Origin: Faecalibacillus intestinalis | GTDB taxonomy: Bacteria > Bacillota_I > Bacilli_A > Erysipelotrichales > Coprobacillaceae | Direction: 5' to 3' | Length of the DNA stretch: 46,091 nt | Assembly: GCF_003024685.1 (NCBI RefSeq) | Contig: NZ_PYLQ01000021.1 | Span: 1-46,091 of the forward strand | Shown here: in pieces, positions 4,662 through 29,303 of the stretch | Layout: every line of letters begins with the position of its first letter | How positions within the stretch are numbered: the first letter of the stretch is position 1 | Made by a program: the position numbers and the translations under genes | The notes under the pieces: model-generated | Database searches by the model: none | The model's input: the letters and a program-made list of their open reading frames with translations, nothing else | Told to the model about the DNA's origin: nothing

Positions 4662-4738
4662 TGGCGGTCTGGACGGGACTCGAACCCGCGACCTCCGCCG
4701 TGACAGGGCGGCATTCTAACCAGCTGAACTACCAGACC
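4662..4738 (-). tRNA. tRNA-Asp (GTC)
   Basis: 77 nt with encoded CCA. Acceptor GGTCTGG pairs with CCAGACC; the anticodon stem-loop reads CCTGTCACGG with anticodon GTC, and the T-arm has GGTTCGAGTCC. Last gene of the operon; nearly identical to the second Asp gene at 4836-4912. Confidence 0.96.
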
Positions 4739-4753
4739 AGTAATCTATTTAAA

Positions 4754-4829
<76 letters not shown>

Positions 4830-4835
4830 ATTAAT

Positions 4836-4912
4836 TGGCGGTCTGGACGGGACTCGAACCCGCGACCTCCGCCGTGACAGGGCGGCATTCTAACCAACTG
4901 AACTACCAGACC
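4836..4912 (-). tRNA. tRNA-Asp (GTC), second copy
   Basis: 77 nt with CCA. It differs from the copy at 4662-4738 at one D-loop/stem position (AGTTGG in place of AGCTGG). Anticodon GTC. Confidence 0.96.
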
Positions 4913-4924
4913 AAAAGATAAAAA

Positions 4925-5017
4925 TGGCGGAGATTGAGGGATTCGAACCCCCGCAGGACGTTAATCCTCTGCTGGTTTTCAAGACCAGTCCCTTCAGCCA
5001 GACTTGGGTAAATCTCC
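4925..5017 (-). tRNA. tRNA-Ser (TGA)
   Basis: 93 nt with a long variable arm and encoded CCA. Acceptor GGAGATT pairs with AATCTCC; the anticodon loop CTTGAAA gives TGA, which reads UCA/UCG serine codons. Confidence 0.95.
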
Positions 5018-5030
5018 GTAATAAATAAAT

Positions 5031-5106
5031 TGGTGGAGCCAAGCGGGATCGAACCGCTGACCCCCTGCGTGCAAGGCAGGTGCTCTCCCAGCTGAGCTAT
5101 GGCCCC
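5031..5106 (-). tRNA. tRNA-Ala (TGC)
   Basis: 76 nt with CCA. D-arm TAGCTCAGCTGGGAGAGC; anticodon loop CTTGCAC gives TGC. Confidence 0.96.
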
Positions 5107-5118
5107 AATTTTTATAAA

Positions 5119-5195
5119 TGGTCGGGAAGACAGGATTTGAACCTGCGACCCCCTGGTCCCAAACCAGGTGCACTACCAAGCTGTGCTACTTCCCG
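5119..5195 (-). tRNA. tRNA-Pro (TGG)
   Basis: 77 nt with CCA. Acceptor CGGGAAG pairs with CTTCCCG; anticodon loop TTTGGGA gives TGG. Confidence 0.96.
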
Positions 5196-5202
5196 AAAAA
5201 AA

Positions 5203-5279
5203 TGGCGCGCTAGGCAGGAATCGAACCCACAACCTCTTGATCCGTAGTCAAGCACTCTATCCAGTTGAGCTACTAGCGC
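5203..5279 (-). tRNA. tRNA-Arg (ACG)
   Basis: 77 nt with CCA. Acceptor GCGCTAG pairs with CTAGCGC; anticodon loop CTACGGA gives ACG, whose A34 would be deaminated to inosine by TadA. Confidence 0.95.
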
Positions 5280-5290
5280 ATTTTCACAAA

Positions 5291-5365
5291 TGGAGGTTCC
5301 TACCGGACTCGAACCGATGATGACAGAGTTGCAGTCTGTTGCCTTACCAACTTGGCCAAGGAACC
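5291..5365 (-). tRNA. tRNA-Cys (GCA)
   Basis: 75 nt with CCA. Acceptor GGTTCCT pairs with AGGAACC; anticodon loop CTGCAAC gives GCA. First gene of the operon, about 27 bases from the predicted transcription start. Confidence 0.95.
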
Positions 5366-5500: not shown

Positions 5501-6207
5501 TATTTTTTGCAATTATCCACAAAATCTTTAAATAGTTTTAAATGATCATCACTTTTTTTATAAATCATTTCTGAATGCCATTGATATCCTATCACATACT
5601 TTTTATCTGGTAGATAAACAGCTTCTACTAATCCATCATCAGAATAAGCCATTGGCTTTAATGCTGGAGCAAGTTGACAAATAGCTTGATGATGACAACT
5701 ATTCACCATTAAAGTTTCTTGATTTAAGATGTCTTTTAAAGGTGTATTTTCAACAATTTTTACTTGGTGACTTGGATGATCATAAGGAGCAGGTTGTCGA
5801 TGAATACATGTAGGATGAAATTGTTGATCTAAATCTTGATAGAGTGTTCCACCTAAACATGCATTTAATAACTGAATACCTCTACATATTCCTAAAACAG
5901 GCTTATCGGCCTCTAAAACATATTTTAATAGCTTTGGTTCCATTTCATCTCTTTTTTGATTTAATTTTCCGCAATATTCTGCTTTTGCTTGATGATAAAG
6001 TTCAGGATTTAAATCATCCCCTCCCGCAAAAATAAATCCATCAAAATAATGAGCCGTTTCTTTTAAAGAAACATCATCATTAACTAAAGAAAGCATAACA
6101 GGAATACCACCTGCTTCAATAACCCCATCCATATACCCTGGAAGCATCCATAAACTATCTCTTTCTTCATCATATAAAGGAACTATCGCAATTACTGGTT
6201 TATTCAT
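5500..6207 (-). CDS. Gamma-glutamyl-GABA hydrolase family protein (peptidase C26, class-I amidotransferase fold)
   Basis: 235 residues, the usual length for PuuD-type enzymes. The nucleophile elbow LGICRGIQLLNACLGGTLYQ carries the catalytic Cys (about residue 105), and the His-Glu pair is in YQWHSEMI near the C-terminus (the family more often has QWHPE). An early FAGGDDLNPELY motif shapes the glutamyl site. It is expected to hydrolyse gamma-glutamyl amide bonds in the cytoplasm; the substrate is not evident because no polyamine pathway genes are adjacent. The start has GAGGT about 7 bases upstream. It is a single gene transcribed toward the tRNA operon promoter region. Confidence 0.88.
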   Translation of the reverse strand: MNKPVIAIVPLYDEERDSLWMLPGYMDGVIEAGGIPVMLSLVNDDVSLKETAHYFDGFIFAGGDDLNPELYHQAKAEYCGKLNQKRDEMEPKLLKYVLEADKPVLGICRGIQLLNACLGGTLYQDLDQQFHPTCIHRQPAPYDHPSHQVKIVENTPLKDILNQETLMVNSCHHQAICQLAPALKPMAYSDDGLVEAVYLPDKKYVIGYQWHSEMIYKKSDDHLKLFKDFVDNCKK

Positions 6208-6287
6208 AAAAGTACCTCTTTTTCGTCTTTTTTAACATTATAGCATAACTTATGTTTTGTGCTATAATAAAAAACGAGGTGAAAAAA

Positions 6288-24003: not shown

Positions 24004-25311
24004 ATGGAAAATCTTTACAAATTAGATGGTAAAGTTCCAATTTTAAAAGCAATTCTTTTTGGATTGAAGCATATCTTAGCAATGTTTGTTGCTAACCTTT
24101 CACCAATTACTTTAATTGGTCTTGCATCTAGTTTAAAACAAACAGAAATTGCATTTTTATTACAAAATGCAATGTTTATTGCAGGAATTGTAACTTTAAT
24201 TCAATTATATCCTATTTGGAAAATCGGTTCACGTTTACCTATTGTTATGAGTGTCAACTTTAATTTTGTAGCTATCTTAACCTATGTAGGTGCTACTTAT
24301 GGTTATGCAAGTGCCATGGATGCAGTTTTAATAGGTGGACTAATTGAAGGGTGTTTAGGACTACTTGCACGTTATTGAAAAAAAATTATTACACCAATCG
24401 TTGCTGCATCTGTTGTTACGTCCATTGATTTTTCACTTTTTTCTGTTGGAACACGTTCTTTTGGTGGAGGTTACAGTGAAAGTTTTGGCTCTGCTAAAAA
24501 TTTACTTTTAGGGATTATCACTTTAGCAGCTTGTTTATTATTTAATATTTTTGCAAAATCATATAGCCAACAATTATCTGTTTTATTTTGTTTAATTGTT
24601 GGCAATATTCTTGCTATTTTTATGGGAAAAGTAGATTTATCTGTTATTTTTAATGGTGGATTGATTGCTTTATCTCATCTACTTCCTTTTAAAATGAAGT
24701 TTGATCTTGGCGCGATTATCGCTGTCGTCGTTATTTTCTTAGTTTCAGCTACTGAAACGATTGGTGATACCTCAGCCCTTGTAAACTCAGGATTAAATCG
24801 TGAAGTTACAGAAGAAGAAATTTCTGATTCTTTAGCTTGTGATGGGTTTTGTAGTTCTATTTCATCATTATTTGGTTGTCCACCGATTACTTCTTTTAGT
24901 CAAAATGTTGGTTTAATCAATATAACAAAAGTCGTCAATCGTTTTACGATTGCTACAGGAGCTATTTGTATGATCTTAGTTGGTTTACTTCCACCTATTG
25001 GTAATTTCTTTTCATCATTGCCTGAATCTGTTTTAGGTGGTGGTACAATTATGATGTTTGGTACTATTCTTACAAGTGGAATTGAAATGATTGCTAAAGC
25101 TGGATTTAATCAAAGAAATGTAACAATTGTTGCTTTATCATTAGCTGTTGGAATTGGATTTACTTCAGGAACAGAAGCTGATATTTGGCATATTTTTCCA
25201 AAAATCATTCAAGATGTTTTTGCTGGAAATTGCGTTGCTGTTGTTTTTGTTGTTTCAATTATTCTAAGTCTTGTTTTACCTAAAGATATGAATATTAAAA
25301 AGATAAAATAA
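24004..25311 (+). pseudogene. NCS2 xanthine/uracil permease interrupted by one in-frame TGA
   Basis: Reading through a TGA at 24376-24378 gives a single 435-codon frame with no other lesion, the normal size of a nucleobase:cation symporter-2. The N-part has ILAMFVANLSPITLIGLA; the C-part has the substrate-site motif SATETIGDTSAL and the NCS2 motif FGCPPITSFSQNVGLI. The TGA lies between LLARY and KKIITPIVAASVV, where relatives commonly have Trp (from recall), so TGG to TGA is the simplest change. Standard decoding truncates the protein at 124 residues, before the substrate site. No clear ribosome binding site or purine riboswitch is seen upstream. Confidence 0.85.
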
Positions 25312-25334: not shown

Positions 25335-25610
25335 TTATTGAATCGTTCCAATTTCAAGTGATTTGATTTTTTCAACAATCATATCCATTGCTGTACCTTC
25401 ATCTTCACCTTCTACAACAATTTCAATTTTTGCCTTATGAGGAATTCCAAGAGACAAAACACCCATTAAAGACTTCATATTTACTGATTTTTCATTATAA
25501 TTGAGCGTCACATGACTTTTATAAAGTTTGACCGCATCCACTAATTCAGTAGCTGGAGAAGCATAAAGACCTACAGGATTTGTAATTTCAATATTCACTT
25601 TTTTTGCCAT
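25335..25610 (-). CDS. HPr-like protein lacking the phosphorylated His (Crh-like)
   Basis: 91 residues, full HPr length. The active-site segment reads NPVGLYASPATELV where HPr has G-[IL]-H-A-R-P-A-T: the His phosphorylated by Enzyme I is Tyr16 (codon TAT) and the neighbouring Arg is Ser18 (TCT). The regulatory site is intact: NMKSLMGVLSLGI, with Ser47 equal to HPr Ser46, the HPrK/P target. It therefore cannot pass phosphate in the PTS but could be Ser-phosphorylated and act as CcpA co-repressor, as Bacillus Crh (Gln at the His position) does. The start has AGGGGAG upstream. A true HPr must exist elsewhere if the organism uses the PTS. The functional reading is inference. Confidence 0.88.
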   Translation of the reverse strand: MAKKVNIEITNPVGLYASPATELVDAVKLYKSHVTLNYNEKSVNMKSLMGVLSLGIPHKAKIEIVVEGEDEGTAMDMIVEKIKSLEIGTIQ

Positions 25611-25663: not shown

Positions 25664-26185
25664 TTACCTTTTTTCAATAATAACAACATATGGCGAATTG
25701 TTTTTATTCATCATCTCAAACTTTGCTACATTATATAGTTTATGATCTAAAGAACGAAAATATGCATCCAAATTTGTACTTTCTTTCCCTTGATCATGTC
25801 CAATATAAACAACCACATGCAAACATCCACCTTTGACTAAATGTTCCAAAGCTTTTTCTATTGTTTTTAAGGTTGTTTCATACTGTGTTACACATTCATG
25901 ATTGCCACCTGGTAAATAACCTAGATTAAAAATTCCAACCTCAAAATCTTGAACATCTTCATCAAAGTATTCATGACTTTTTAAAAATAAAGTAATATTC
26001 TTTTTTCTCTTTACTAATTCTTTTGTATTATTTAACGCTAATGATTGAATATCATAACTATAAACATGATGACAATAATCACTTAAAAACAGTGTATCAT
26101 GACCATTTCCCATCGTAAAATCAATCCCGTTTTGATATTTATGTTTTTTTATCCTTTGATGTACAAACTCAATCATAGATTCCAT
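25664..26185 (-). CDS. mnmM: tRNA U34 methyltransferase of the MnmM (YtqB) family
   Basis: 173 residues from the ATG at 26185, which has AGAGGTGA at correct spacing; the frame also opens at a GTG at 26194. It is a class I SAM methyltransferase: motif I is IDFTMGNGHDTLFLS, and the signature FNLGYLPGGNHE is characteristic of YtqB/MnmM, which makes the final methylation of 5-aminomethyl-2-thiouridine at tRNA position 34. It ends in VVIIEKR. It overlaps closely with the pseudouridine synthase gene upstream (12 bp apart), so both RNA-modification genes are probably one unit. Confidence 0.85.
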   Translation of the reverse strand: MESMIEFVHQRIKKHKYQNGIDFTMGNGHDTLFLSDYCHHVYSYDIQSLALNNTKELVKRKKNITLFLKSHEYFDEDVQDFEVGIFNLGYLPGGNHECVTQYETTLKTIEKALEHLVKGGCLHVVVYIGHDQGKESTNLDAYFRSLDHKLYNVAKFEMMNKNNSPYVVIIEKR

Positions 26186-26197
26186 TTTCTTCACCTC

Positions 26198-27016
26198 TTA
26201 TTTTTTACCATAAAATTCTTTTGGACAATCCACCTTAAATTCATATTTCTTTTTAGTAACAGGATGAATAAAACCAAATGCATGTGCATGTAATCCAAGC
26301 CTTCTCAGTGGATTCGTTGTTGCTCCATATTTCTTATCGCCAACAATTGGATGATGAATATTTGATAATTGAACTCTGATTTGATTTTTTCTACCTGTAT
26401 CTAATTGTATTTCTAAAAGGGTTTGGTTTTTTATTTCTTTAATAGCTTTATAATGCGTAATCGCAAGTTTCCCTTTTTCTTTACTTGTAACATAAACTTG
26501 TTGACTTCTACTTTCTGCCAAATAGTTTTTTAATGTTCCATTTTTTAAGCCTTTACCTTCTACTAAAGCCATATAGCCTCTTAAATAAACAATTTTATTC
26601 CAATCTTTTTGTAATAAATCTCTTATTTTTTCATTTTTACAAAACATTAAAACACCAGATGTTTCTCGATCTAAACGATGAACAATAAATACTTTTTGTT
26701 TTCTGTCTTGTTTTTTTAAATATTCACTTACATAATGATAAGCTGTTTTTTCTTTTTCTTTACCATCTGACATGCTTAATAAACCAGAAGGTTTATTGAT
26801 TACAACAAATTCTTGATCTTCATATAAAATCTCTAATGAAGATGTATTTTCTTTTTTGATTTCTACTTGGTCATTTTCATGTAATAAATAATCAAACTGA
26901 CTAATTTGTTGGTTATTTACATAAACTTGTTTATATTTTAATAAGTTTTTAGCATTTTTGCGATTATAAGATAATAACAGATAATCCATTAATAACATTT
27001 CTTTTTTTACTTTCAT
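26198..27016 (-). CDS. RluA-family RNA pseudouridine synthase
   Basis: 272 residues. An N-terminal S4-like RNA-binding region (LLLSYNRKNAKNLLKYKQVY) precedes the catalytic domain with IVHRLDRETSGVLMF, whose Asp is the nucleophile, and later LEIQLDTGRKNQIRVQL. This matches the RluA/RluD class. Which rRNA or tRNA uridine is modified cannot be told. AGGAGA precedes the ATG. Confidence 0.92.
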   Translation of the reverse strand: MKVKKEMLLMDYLLLSYNRKNAKNLLKYKQVYVNNQQISQFDYLLHENDQVEIKKENTSSLEILYEDQEFVVINKPSGLLSMSDGKEKEKTAYHYVSEYLKKQDRKQKVFIVHRLDRETSGVLMFCKNEKIRDLLQKDWNKIVYLRGYMALVEGKGLKNGTLKNYLAESRSQQVYVTSKEKGKLAITHYKAIKEIKNQTLLEIQLDTGRKNQIRVQLSNIHHPIVGDKKYGATTNPLRRLGLHAHAFGFIHPVTKKKYEFKVDCPKEFYGKK

Positions 27017-27026
27017 TTTTTTCTCC

Positions 27027-27056
27027 TAAAAAAATGCAAAGAAATCTTTGCATTTT
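27027..27056 (-). terminator. Terminator of the ATPase-like gene
   Basis: Minus strand AAAATGCAAAG / CTTTGCATTTT with a four-base loop followed by T-run, directly after the stop codon of the ATPase-like gene. Confidence 0.85.
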
Positions 27057-28992
27057 ACATTCTTACAATATTTTGTGAATTCAATAAAACAAGTATTGAT
27101 TCTAAAATATAAATTAAACAAGCTACCCACCAAGAAATAAATGAAATAACTGCTAATAATACAACAAGCAAGCTAATCACAATCCCAATAAAAGTATTTC
27201 CAATATTAATACTCTTTTGTTTTCTAGCTATTTTTAATAAATCAATAATTGTATCAAAATTAGAATCCGTCAACATAATATCACTATTACGTTGTACTTT
27301 TTCATTATGCACACCACCACGAGAAATGGCAACAGAAGCCTTTTGAAGTAAAGCAATATCTTTATCACAATCTCCAATATAAGCAACAGGTCCAGCAACA
27401 AGTGTTTTATCCATAACTTTTAATTTTTGTTCAACACTATAATTGTTATAAATTGTATATTCATCATTTTCTAAATCAACCGGTCCGTCATTAAAAATAA
27501 TCAATGATTTATGTAATCCTTTGATTTTTTCAAAAAGATCCATTTCTTCTTCTGTTGTTTCAATACCATCAAAACGATCATAGATAATTGTTGTACATGT
27601 ATTTAAATCATCCAACCCGCTATTTTCTTTAATCGCAATTTTTTTAGAGAATGCTTTAGCTATTCCCGCAAGTAAAGTAAAGGATGCTCCTTGAACATAG
27701 GCAAAACTTCCAGAAACAGTCAACATAATAATTCCTAAATACATATATTTTAAATTATCTGTTAAATTTATTAATGGTAAAACAACACAGCATACTAAAC
27801 CAACAATAATTAAAGCTTTAGAATAAACATCAGAAACTTTAAAAATAATTTTTTCTGTATGTGATGAAGACATTGGTGCATTCATCGCAATATCTAAAAC
27901 TTTAGACATTGCTGAATCTTCATATAAAGCTGTTGTTTTTACATGTAAATATCCTTCTGTAACAACAGTTCCACTATAAACTTCATTTCCAATTTTAGAT
28001 TTAATACATACATCACTACCATCAATGGCATAAACATCCAATTTAGCATTTCCCTTAATAATTTTACCACCTAAAGGAATGGTTTCACCCTCATTGATAA
28101 CGATAACATCTCCAATATCAAAGTTACCTAAAGGAATCATTTCTTCTTTTCCTTTACGTAACCTTCTTCCTAAGTTTTGATGCGCTACTAAATCATCGAT
28201 CTTTTCCATAGACCATTGTGTTACTTGCATAATCAATTGTTTACCAGCTTGATACATGATAGAAACGACCAACGCTTCAATAAATGCTCCATAGATCCAT
28301 CCCATAAAACAAGCTAATAAAAAGATATTATTTTCTGATAAATAATTTTTTAACTGTAAATCTCTTTTAGCTTCAACAAGTACTTTTTCATTACAAATAA
28401 GTAAAGCTATCATCCATCCTACATAAGTTAAAAATGAAGTATCTCCAAAAGTAACCAATCCAAGTGCAATACCTACACATAATAAAGCAATTCTTGCATA
28501 CTTTTGTACATATTTTTCATTAAATAAATCTTGTGATTTAAAAGGCTTTTTCCATTGTTCTACTTGTATTTCAGGATTAACATTTTCAACAATACGTGAA
28601 ATACGAGGTAATGCTTTTGCTGAAGTTGTTAATGTTAAAAGTTTGTTTTGAAAATCTAATTGAACATTTTCATAAACACTATATTTAGAAAGAATGTTTT
28701 GTATTTCGTGTGCATCTTTTTCACTTTCCAAATTCGTAAACATGAAGATTTTTTCTACTTTTGCTTGATTAGAAACATACTCTCTTTTCTTTCGATTGAC
28801 CATTTCTTGAAGTACATAATCCATCTTTGATTCATCTAAATAGTTTTGTATATTATCTGGTCGTGCACAATTAAACGAAATAGAATCCTTATTTATTTTA
28901 ATATGTGACACTTCTTGCATACTATTTAACTTTAAAGATAAAGCATTAATATCATCATTACTTACATGATCAATATAATATACACGTTCCAT
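27055..28992 (-). CDS. P1B-type ATPase-like membrane protein with lost catalytic motifs and no N domain
   Basis: 645 residues, intact frame, AAGGAG before the ATG. Two HMA-like ferredoxin-fold repeats without CxxC (about 1-60 and 80-145) precede four membrane helices, an A domain, a helix pair, a P-like domain and two C-terminal helices. The architecture follows a heavy-metal P-type ATPase, but the A-domain TGES loop is DGSD (about 322), the metal-site CPC is GSF (about 428), DKTGT is DRFDG (Asp about 471 retained) and GDGxND is GDCDKD (about 540). The gap between the phosphorylation and hinge motifs is only about 70 residues where P1B pumps have over 200, so the nucleotide-binding domain is missing. 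It is unlikely to pump with ATP; a metal-binding, scaffold or channel role is possible. Confidence 0.82.
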   Translation of the reverse strand: MERVYYIDHVSNDDINALSLKLNSMQEVSHIKINKDSISFNCARPDNIQNYLDESKMDYVLQEMVNRKKREYVSNQAKVEKIFMFTNLESEKDAHEIQNILSKYSVYENVQLDFQNKLLTLTTSAKALPRISRIVENVNPEIQVEQWKKPFKSQDLFNEKYVQKYARIALLCVGIALGLVTFGDTSFLTYVGWMIALLICNEKVLVEAKRDLQLKNYLSENNIFLLACFMGWIYGAFIEALVVSIMYQAGKQLIMQVTQWSMEKIDDLVAHQNLGRRLRKGKEEMIPLGNFDIGDVIVINEGETIPLGGKIIKGNAKLDVYAIDGSDVCIKSKIGNEVYSGTVVTEGYLHVKTTALYEDSAMSKVLDIAMNAPMSSSHTEKIIFKVSDVYSKALIIVGLVCCVVLPLINLTDNLKYMYLGIIMLTVSGSFAYVQGASFTLLAGIAKAFSKKIAIKENSGLDDLNTCTTIIYDRFDGIETTEEEMDLFEKIKGLHKSLIIFNDGPVDLENDEYTIYNNYSVEQKLKVMDKTLVAGPVAYIGDCDKDIALLQKASVAISRGGVHNEKVQRNSDIMLTDSNFDTIIDLLKIARKQKSINIGNTFIGIVISLLVVLLAVISFISWWVACLIYILESILVLLNSQNIVRM

Positions 28993-29051: not shown

Positions 29052-29303
29052 CTACTTTCCTTCATTCGTCTTTTTATGTTTGATAATCAAAAAATTTTGA
29101 TGGAATTCTTTTTCTGTACAAGATAAAGTGAACTCATCACCATATACTTTATAATAAAGTTGTTCATTTATTTCTCCTTTAATAACACAATCATAGATTG
29201 CTCCTTTTTCAAATAAAGTATTTTCTTCTTTTCCAATAATGATGTTCATTGACTTTATACATCTACATAAACATCTTTTCCCTGAATTTGCGATGATAAT
29301 CAC
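29052..29303 (-). CDS. Small protein upstream of the ATPase-like gene, unknown function
   Basis: 83 residues if begun at the GTG at 29303, or 65 from the ATG at 29249 (MNIIIGKEEN). Neither has a good ribosome binding site; a GAGGTG overlaps the GTG itself, so the true start may be a non-ATG codon a few bases in. The longer form has a Cys cluster, CLCRC, near its N-terminus and another Cys (LSC) later. It lies 59 bp upstream of the ATPase-like gene on the same strand and is probably cotranscribed, so a shared, possibly metal-related role is a guess. Confidence 0.5.
   Translation of the reverse strand: MIIIANSGKRCLCRCIKSMNIIIGKEENTLFEKGAIYDCVIKGEINEQLYYKVYGDEFTLSCTEKEFHQNFLIIKHKKTNEGK

Follow-up and report, generated by a model that had tools for sequence, protein, structure and literature searches.

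A P1B-type ATPase-like protein without an N domain and with altered pump motifs is maintained in Coprobacillaceae

Characteristic motifs define the P-type ATPases, a textbook family, and in pseudoenzymes in general the catalytic fold stays under selection after catalysis is lost, as is the case for the protein described here (hereafter the pseudo-pump). A description of a P-type ATPase pseudoenzyme was not found in the open-access literature with the terms tried, an absence that is weak evidence. The closest described systems are the P1B-2 Zn/Cd/Pb ATPase ZntA (PDB 4umv/4umw) and the P1B-1 Cu ATPase CopA (PDB 7r0g, 3a1e). With ZntA the pseudo-pump shares fold and topology, the Glu at position E202, the nucleophile Asp, the motif III Lys, and both Asp of GDGxND; unlike ZntA, it has no N domain, no CPC, no TGES, none of the Thr/Gly/Thr of DKTGT, and no Cys in its HMA domains, and its clade has lost the equivalents of K693 and D714. 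CopA provides the best structural match to the pseudo-pump model but differs by its N domain and CPC, and is more distant in sequence than ZntA. Like HAD phosphatases and ATPases, the pseudo-pump has a Rossmann-like P domain with Asp, Lys, and GDxxxD; unlike them, it carries Phe instead of the +2 catalytic residue and has neither cap nor N domain.

The window, i.e., the whole analysed stretch of 46,091 nucleotides, derives from a Faecalibacillus genome, for which Faecalibacillus faecis is the nearest named match (85%), and its features are listed in Table 1. The pseudo-pump is encoded by an intact frame of 645 codons, as the first-pass annotation had reported, starting with an ATG at 28992 that is preceded by AAGGAG at a distance of about 8 nt. 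Pfam E1-E2_ATPase (PF00122) matched the A-domain/M region over the gathering score (E 6e-27), and NCBIfam heavy-metal P-type models matched residues 224–472 (E 3e-48), yet under their curated cut-offs. The AlphaFold model (mean pLDDT 82.6, built from 33 homologues) comprises two HMA-type folds, helices MA, MB, and M1–M6, an A domain, and a Rossmann-like P domain; the two folds and eight membrane helices agree with the two HMA-like domains and six to eight helices proposed from the letters alone. The order is that of a P1B-type ATPase (MA, MB plus a six-helix core, A and P domains). In the fold search, the whole model matched CopA (7r0g) with Z 24.5 over 473 residues, and its P domain matched the CopA P/N-domain structure 3a1e with Z 17.4 over 140 residues (rmsd 2.5 Å). 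When the family profile was searched against solved structures, ZntA was the best sequence match (E 1.8e-42), in two pieces (residues 190–477 and 523–644) that skip the N domain.

Table 1. Features of the pseudo-pump locus, with positions in the window and the basis of each assignment
Feature	Position	Strand	Basis
P1B-like pseudo-pump, 645 aa, N domain absent	27055..28992	-	ORF, profile matches, alignment, model, fold search
HMA-like fold 1, residues 3-65, no CxxC	28798..28986	-	beta-alpha-beta-beta-alpha-beta in model
HMA-like fold 2, residues 79-147, no CxxC	28552..28758	-	model
Linker, residues 149-158, KPF[KR]SQDxFN, candidate binding motif	28519..28548	-	alignment, model
Helices MA, MB, M1, M2; E239 aligned to ZntA E202	28183..28518	-	alignment, model
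A domain, residues 274-372	27877..28173	-	model, alignment
DGSD (D324-G-S-D327) in place of TGES	28012-28023	-	alignment to real pumps
GSF (G428-S429-F430) in M4, replacing CPC	27703..27711	-	alignment
P domain, residues 452-576, Rossmann-like, without N-domain insertion	27265..27639	-	model; 3a1e match
DRFDG, residues 472-476, nucleophile Asp retained	27565..27579	-	alignment
NDGP, residues 501-504, where the TGD motif sits	27481..27492	-	invariant in 17 orthologues
K523, HAD motif III Lys	27424..27426	-	alignment
GDCDKD, residues 540-545, D541 and D545 retained	27358..27375	-	alignment
Helices M5-M6, residues 580-638; ZntA K693/D714 positions lost in window clade	27079..27255	-	model, alignment
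Small protein, 83 aa, four invariant Cys, predicted SH3-like barrel, likely partner	29052..29303	-	alignment, co-occurrence, model
RluA-family pseudouridine synthase, conserved downstream neighbour	26198..27016	-	neighbourhood, profile match

Both N-terminal folds show the beta-alpha-beta-beta-alpha-beta order of ferredoxin-like HMA domains in the model; Pfam HMA recognised fold 1 only at E 0.02, in 2/17 members. Both folds are free of Cys, and the CxxC metal ligands were not found in the HMA-like domains in the homologue alignment. The linker that follows is conserved (mean 0.86), though its pLDDT is under 50 at residues 149–156, and looks like a candidate binding motif.

The first-pass annotation had described all four signature motifs as altered, which holds insofar as each of them differs, but the chemically central residues are kept in two. 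In the alignment to real pumps, DKTGT is replaced by DRFDG with the Asp retained, and GDGxND by GDCDKD with both Asp retained and Asn changed to Lys; TGES is replaced by DGSD (NTST-like in a sister clade), TGD by NDG, and the CPx motif of M4 by GSF, being missing from every homologue. DRFDG and GDCDKD are separated by 63 residues, none of which forms an N domain; the spacing was thus correctly seen as short (about 70 residues had been given), but the value of over 200 quoted for pumps is slightly high, as alignment positions place the same two motifs about 187 residues apart in SsZntA. The P1B-2 (ZntA) subgroup motifs are N(x)7K in M5 and DxG(x)7N in M6 (PMC6305203), and the roles of K693 and D714 of ZntA were taken from PMC6305203 and PMC8880997. 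Lys and Asp of these motifs are both lost in the window clade; a sister clade retains the M5 Lys and has Glu at the M6 Asp. E239, aligned to the release-pathway Glu E202 of ZntA, is near-invariant. The changes reported by the first-pass annotation remove essential pump chemistry, since the Glu for dephosphorylation, the metal-binding cysteines, and KTGT of the phosphorylation motif are gone.

What had been overlooked is the surviving HAD core. D472, K523, D541, and D545 correspond, in the alignment to ZntA, to the nucleophile, the Lys of motif III, and the Asp pair of GDGxND, and are invariant in the 31 orthologues having an intact P domain, so that nucleophile Asp, Lys, and acidic motif IV all stand on a Rossmann-like fold, as in the HAD superfamily. 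The P domain alone was not recognised by Pfam HAD models at a significant E, and no significant match identified it as a relative of another HAD group. The residue at motif I +2, which is Thr in pumps and Asp in most HAD phosphatases, is Phe in the pseudo-pump. This residue and the change from TGD to NDG suggest that phosphoryl chemistry may be dead.

Descent from a ZntA-type (P1B-2) metal pump is well supported by the sequence comparisons. In the tree, the homologues fall outside the true pumps and beside the ZntA-like group, apart from the CopA-containing group (100% split, with limited sampling). The N-less protein was found as a single copy in the genomes of 32/43 species of Coprobacillaceae. 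Outside this family, no homologue was found at E <= 1e-8 in class and phylum samples of 395 and 392 genomes, a search limited to the sampled genomes, so that unsampled ones may hold homologues. Eight genomes of the family are devoid of the gene and of the small Cys4 protein encoded next to it. Six of these could be placed in an RF3 tree, where they make up a single clade whose sister is a gene-bearing clade, and the genomes G006, G007, and G014 sit in another part of this tree; as it was midpoint-rooted, events can be ordered only tentatively. Most simply, the gene was present in the family ancestor, was lost once together with its neighbour, and eroded in one lineage. Inheritance of the pseudo-pump is family-wide and apparently vertical.

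The erosion concerns G006 and G007, whose pseudo-pump relatives with a gutted P domain (L077:1936-3711 and L121:4011-5741, respectively) are open frames of about 577–599 aa that have lost either the P-domain pocket or most of the domain. The G006 homologue adjoins prfC, and that of G007 adjoins the small protein. These frames suggest stepwise erosion of a P-type ATPase within open frames; either the pocket is dispensable for the remaining role there, or the copies are decaying.

Selection was assessed by pairwise dN/dS between close orthologues (Nei-Gojobori), which was 0.03–0.14 for the whole protein and 0–0.10 for the P domain, the ratios being approximate for several pairs with high synonymous divergence. 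Invariant positions amount to 26/125 in the P domain vs 0/69 in M5–M6. Across four genome pairs from different genera, identities of the pseudo-pump and of the ZntA paralogues were 28–45% vs 74–83% in M1–M2, 17–53% vs 66–74% in M5–M6, and 55–74% vs 73–77% in the P domain. For G000/G017 the respective values are 32% vs 83%, 45% vs 66%, and 68% vs 75%; for G000/G018 28% vs 74%, 17% vs 71%, and 55% vs 76%; and in G023/G018 the P domain reaches 74% vs 73%. By these identities, constraint is inverted relative to ZntA: the transport-path helices have drifted most, and the P domain is almost as conserved as in the pump. It speaks for a membrane part that now serves chiefly as an anchor and for the P domain as the working part.

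The small Cys-containing protein upstream had been suggested as a partner, and the genomes speak for it. Its four invariant Cys (CxC, C, C) lie in a protein that is present in 32/32 genomes with the intact pseudo-pump, plus G007 and G014, and adjacency of the two genes holds in the loci examined; it was not found in 105 searched genomes outside Coprobacillaceae, and the G006 homologue occurs without it. In G014 (L122, ~6030-6250, reverse strand), the small protein is encoded without the pump, beside a predicted P-loop protein. Its model is an SH3-like barrel (pLDDT 78.7), the fold search gave weak SH3-like matches alone (Z at most 5.3), and neither a Pfam family nor a significant PDB sequence match was found; hence, no named family is claimed. 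The small protein is a likely partner, physical contact being our reading of co-occurrence, which suggests partnership without proving it, as neighbours may be lost jointly for adjacency alone.

In most genomes the gene order is M29 aminopeptidase, prfC, small Cys4 protein, pseudo-pump, (glycerate kinase), RluA-type synthase, and infC-rpmI-rplT. In genomes without the pair, prfC lies close to glycerate kinase/RluA, and in the window genome prfC sits on another contig, the pair having been moved away from it. Several further observations were made in the window. Between the RluA-type synthase and an HPr-like gene, an MnmM tRNA U34 methyltransferase is encoded at 25664-26194 (reverse strand; over the NCBIfam cut-off). 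The HPr-family protein (25335-25610, reverse strand), downstream of the pseudo-pump in the same apparent operon, has its phosphorylated His changed to Tyr (GLYASPA vs GLHARPA) with the Ser46 region retained; it is possibly a Crh-like regulatory paralogue, and a canonical HPr is present elsewhere in the genome (L153). A membrane permease-like frame (24004-25311, forward strand) is open except for one in-frame TAA near 24376, which marks a recent pseudogene or a sequencing error. Eight tRNA genes are clustered at 4665-5365 (reverse strand), and an Rfam scan of the window detected tRNAs and no other element.

As firmly as sequence evidence allows, the pseudo-pump has lost ATP-driven pumping of metal by the P-type mechanism: without the N domain there is no known ATP-binding site, without TGES the dephosphorylating Glu is gone, and without CPC and the M5/M6 ligands the site of the transported ion is gone. 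In our best reading, to which we assign a probability of roughly 0.5, the protein no longer pumps and acts as a P-domain module tethered to the membrane, binding Mg2+ or phosphate and docking partners, perhaps as a switch or a scaffold. The P domain retains the aspartyl-phosphate/Mg2+ pocket and is the most constrained domain; we propose that it binds Mg2+, possibly together with a small phosphoryl ligand, and offers a surface for docking. Protein contacts at the membrane would be made by the HMA-like domains, the SQD linker, and the small Cys4 protein. The sensor or organiser envisaged by the first-pass annotation comes close to this reading, although the lack of Cys ligands makes a sensor of metal unlikely. 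Against an essential pocket stands, above all, the erosion of the P domain in G006 and G007, and because these two deep-branching relatives lost the pocket, the scaffold role may be the core one.

A pure structural scaffold, in which the pocket is kept for stability or as a protein interface and has no role in binding Mg2+ or phosphate, is a possibility to be kept in mind, if a tentative one; the dispensable pocket of G006 and G007 favours it, and the conserved linker and HMA folds hint at protein contacts, but the four residues that none of the 31 sequences has replaced are those of HAD chemistry, while neighbouring motif residues changed. We consider it unlikely that the protein acts as a receiver-like module, in which D472 would take phosphate from a small donor, or Mg2+/phosphate would be sensed, and long-lived states would signal through the A/P interface, the HMA folds, and the Cys4 SH3-like protein; the phosphorylated state would be long-lived because the TGES Glu is gone. 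An enzyme or pump not driven by ATP, with D472 phosphorylated by a small donor (e.g., acetyl phosphate) or an N domain supplied in trans, appears distinctly improbable. The retained nucleophile, Lys, and both acidic residues as well as E239 would fit it, but the window clade has lost CPC, the M5 Lys, and the M6 Asp, the membrane helices are poorly constrained, and no stand-alone N domain was found in the same genome with one ZntA N-domain query, which a diverged domain could escape.

A passive metal conduit, also raised by the first-pass annotation, or a metal sensor is very improbable. The descent from a Zn/Cd/Pb pump group and the M5 Lys and acidic M6 residue of some homologues point that way; against it stand the loss of CPC in all homologues, the absence of CxxC, the lost Lys and Asp of the window clade, and the inverted constraint, by which a conduit is disfavoured. 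A decaying gene or an assembly error can hardly be the explanation and is already contradicted for the window clade: eight genomes lack gene and neighbour and two relatives have eroded P domains, but the same architecture without internal stops recurs in 32 species at low dN/dS. Absent homologues, relaxed selection, and an assembly deletion had been named as findings that would speak against a maintained pseudo-pump; each was checked, and the proposal stands. Deletion of the N domain during assembly was rejected given the N-less form common to those species, and relaxed selection given the dN/dS.

The pseudo-pump represents a case in which the Coprobacillaceae lineage replaced the family-defining P-type motifs while the protein stayed under selection. 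Since heavy-metal P-type ATPase models match it strongly, metal resistance could be wrongly inferred from its annotation. With the P domain as the most constrained part, it offers a natural test of what a P domain does without nucleotide and transport; cultured hosts exist (Faecalibacillus faecis, Thomasclavelia cocleata, and T. saccharogumia).
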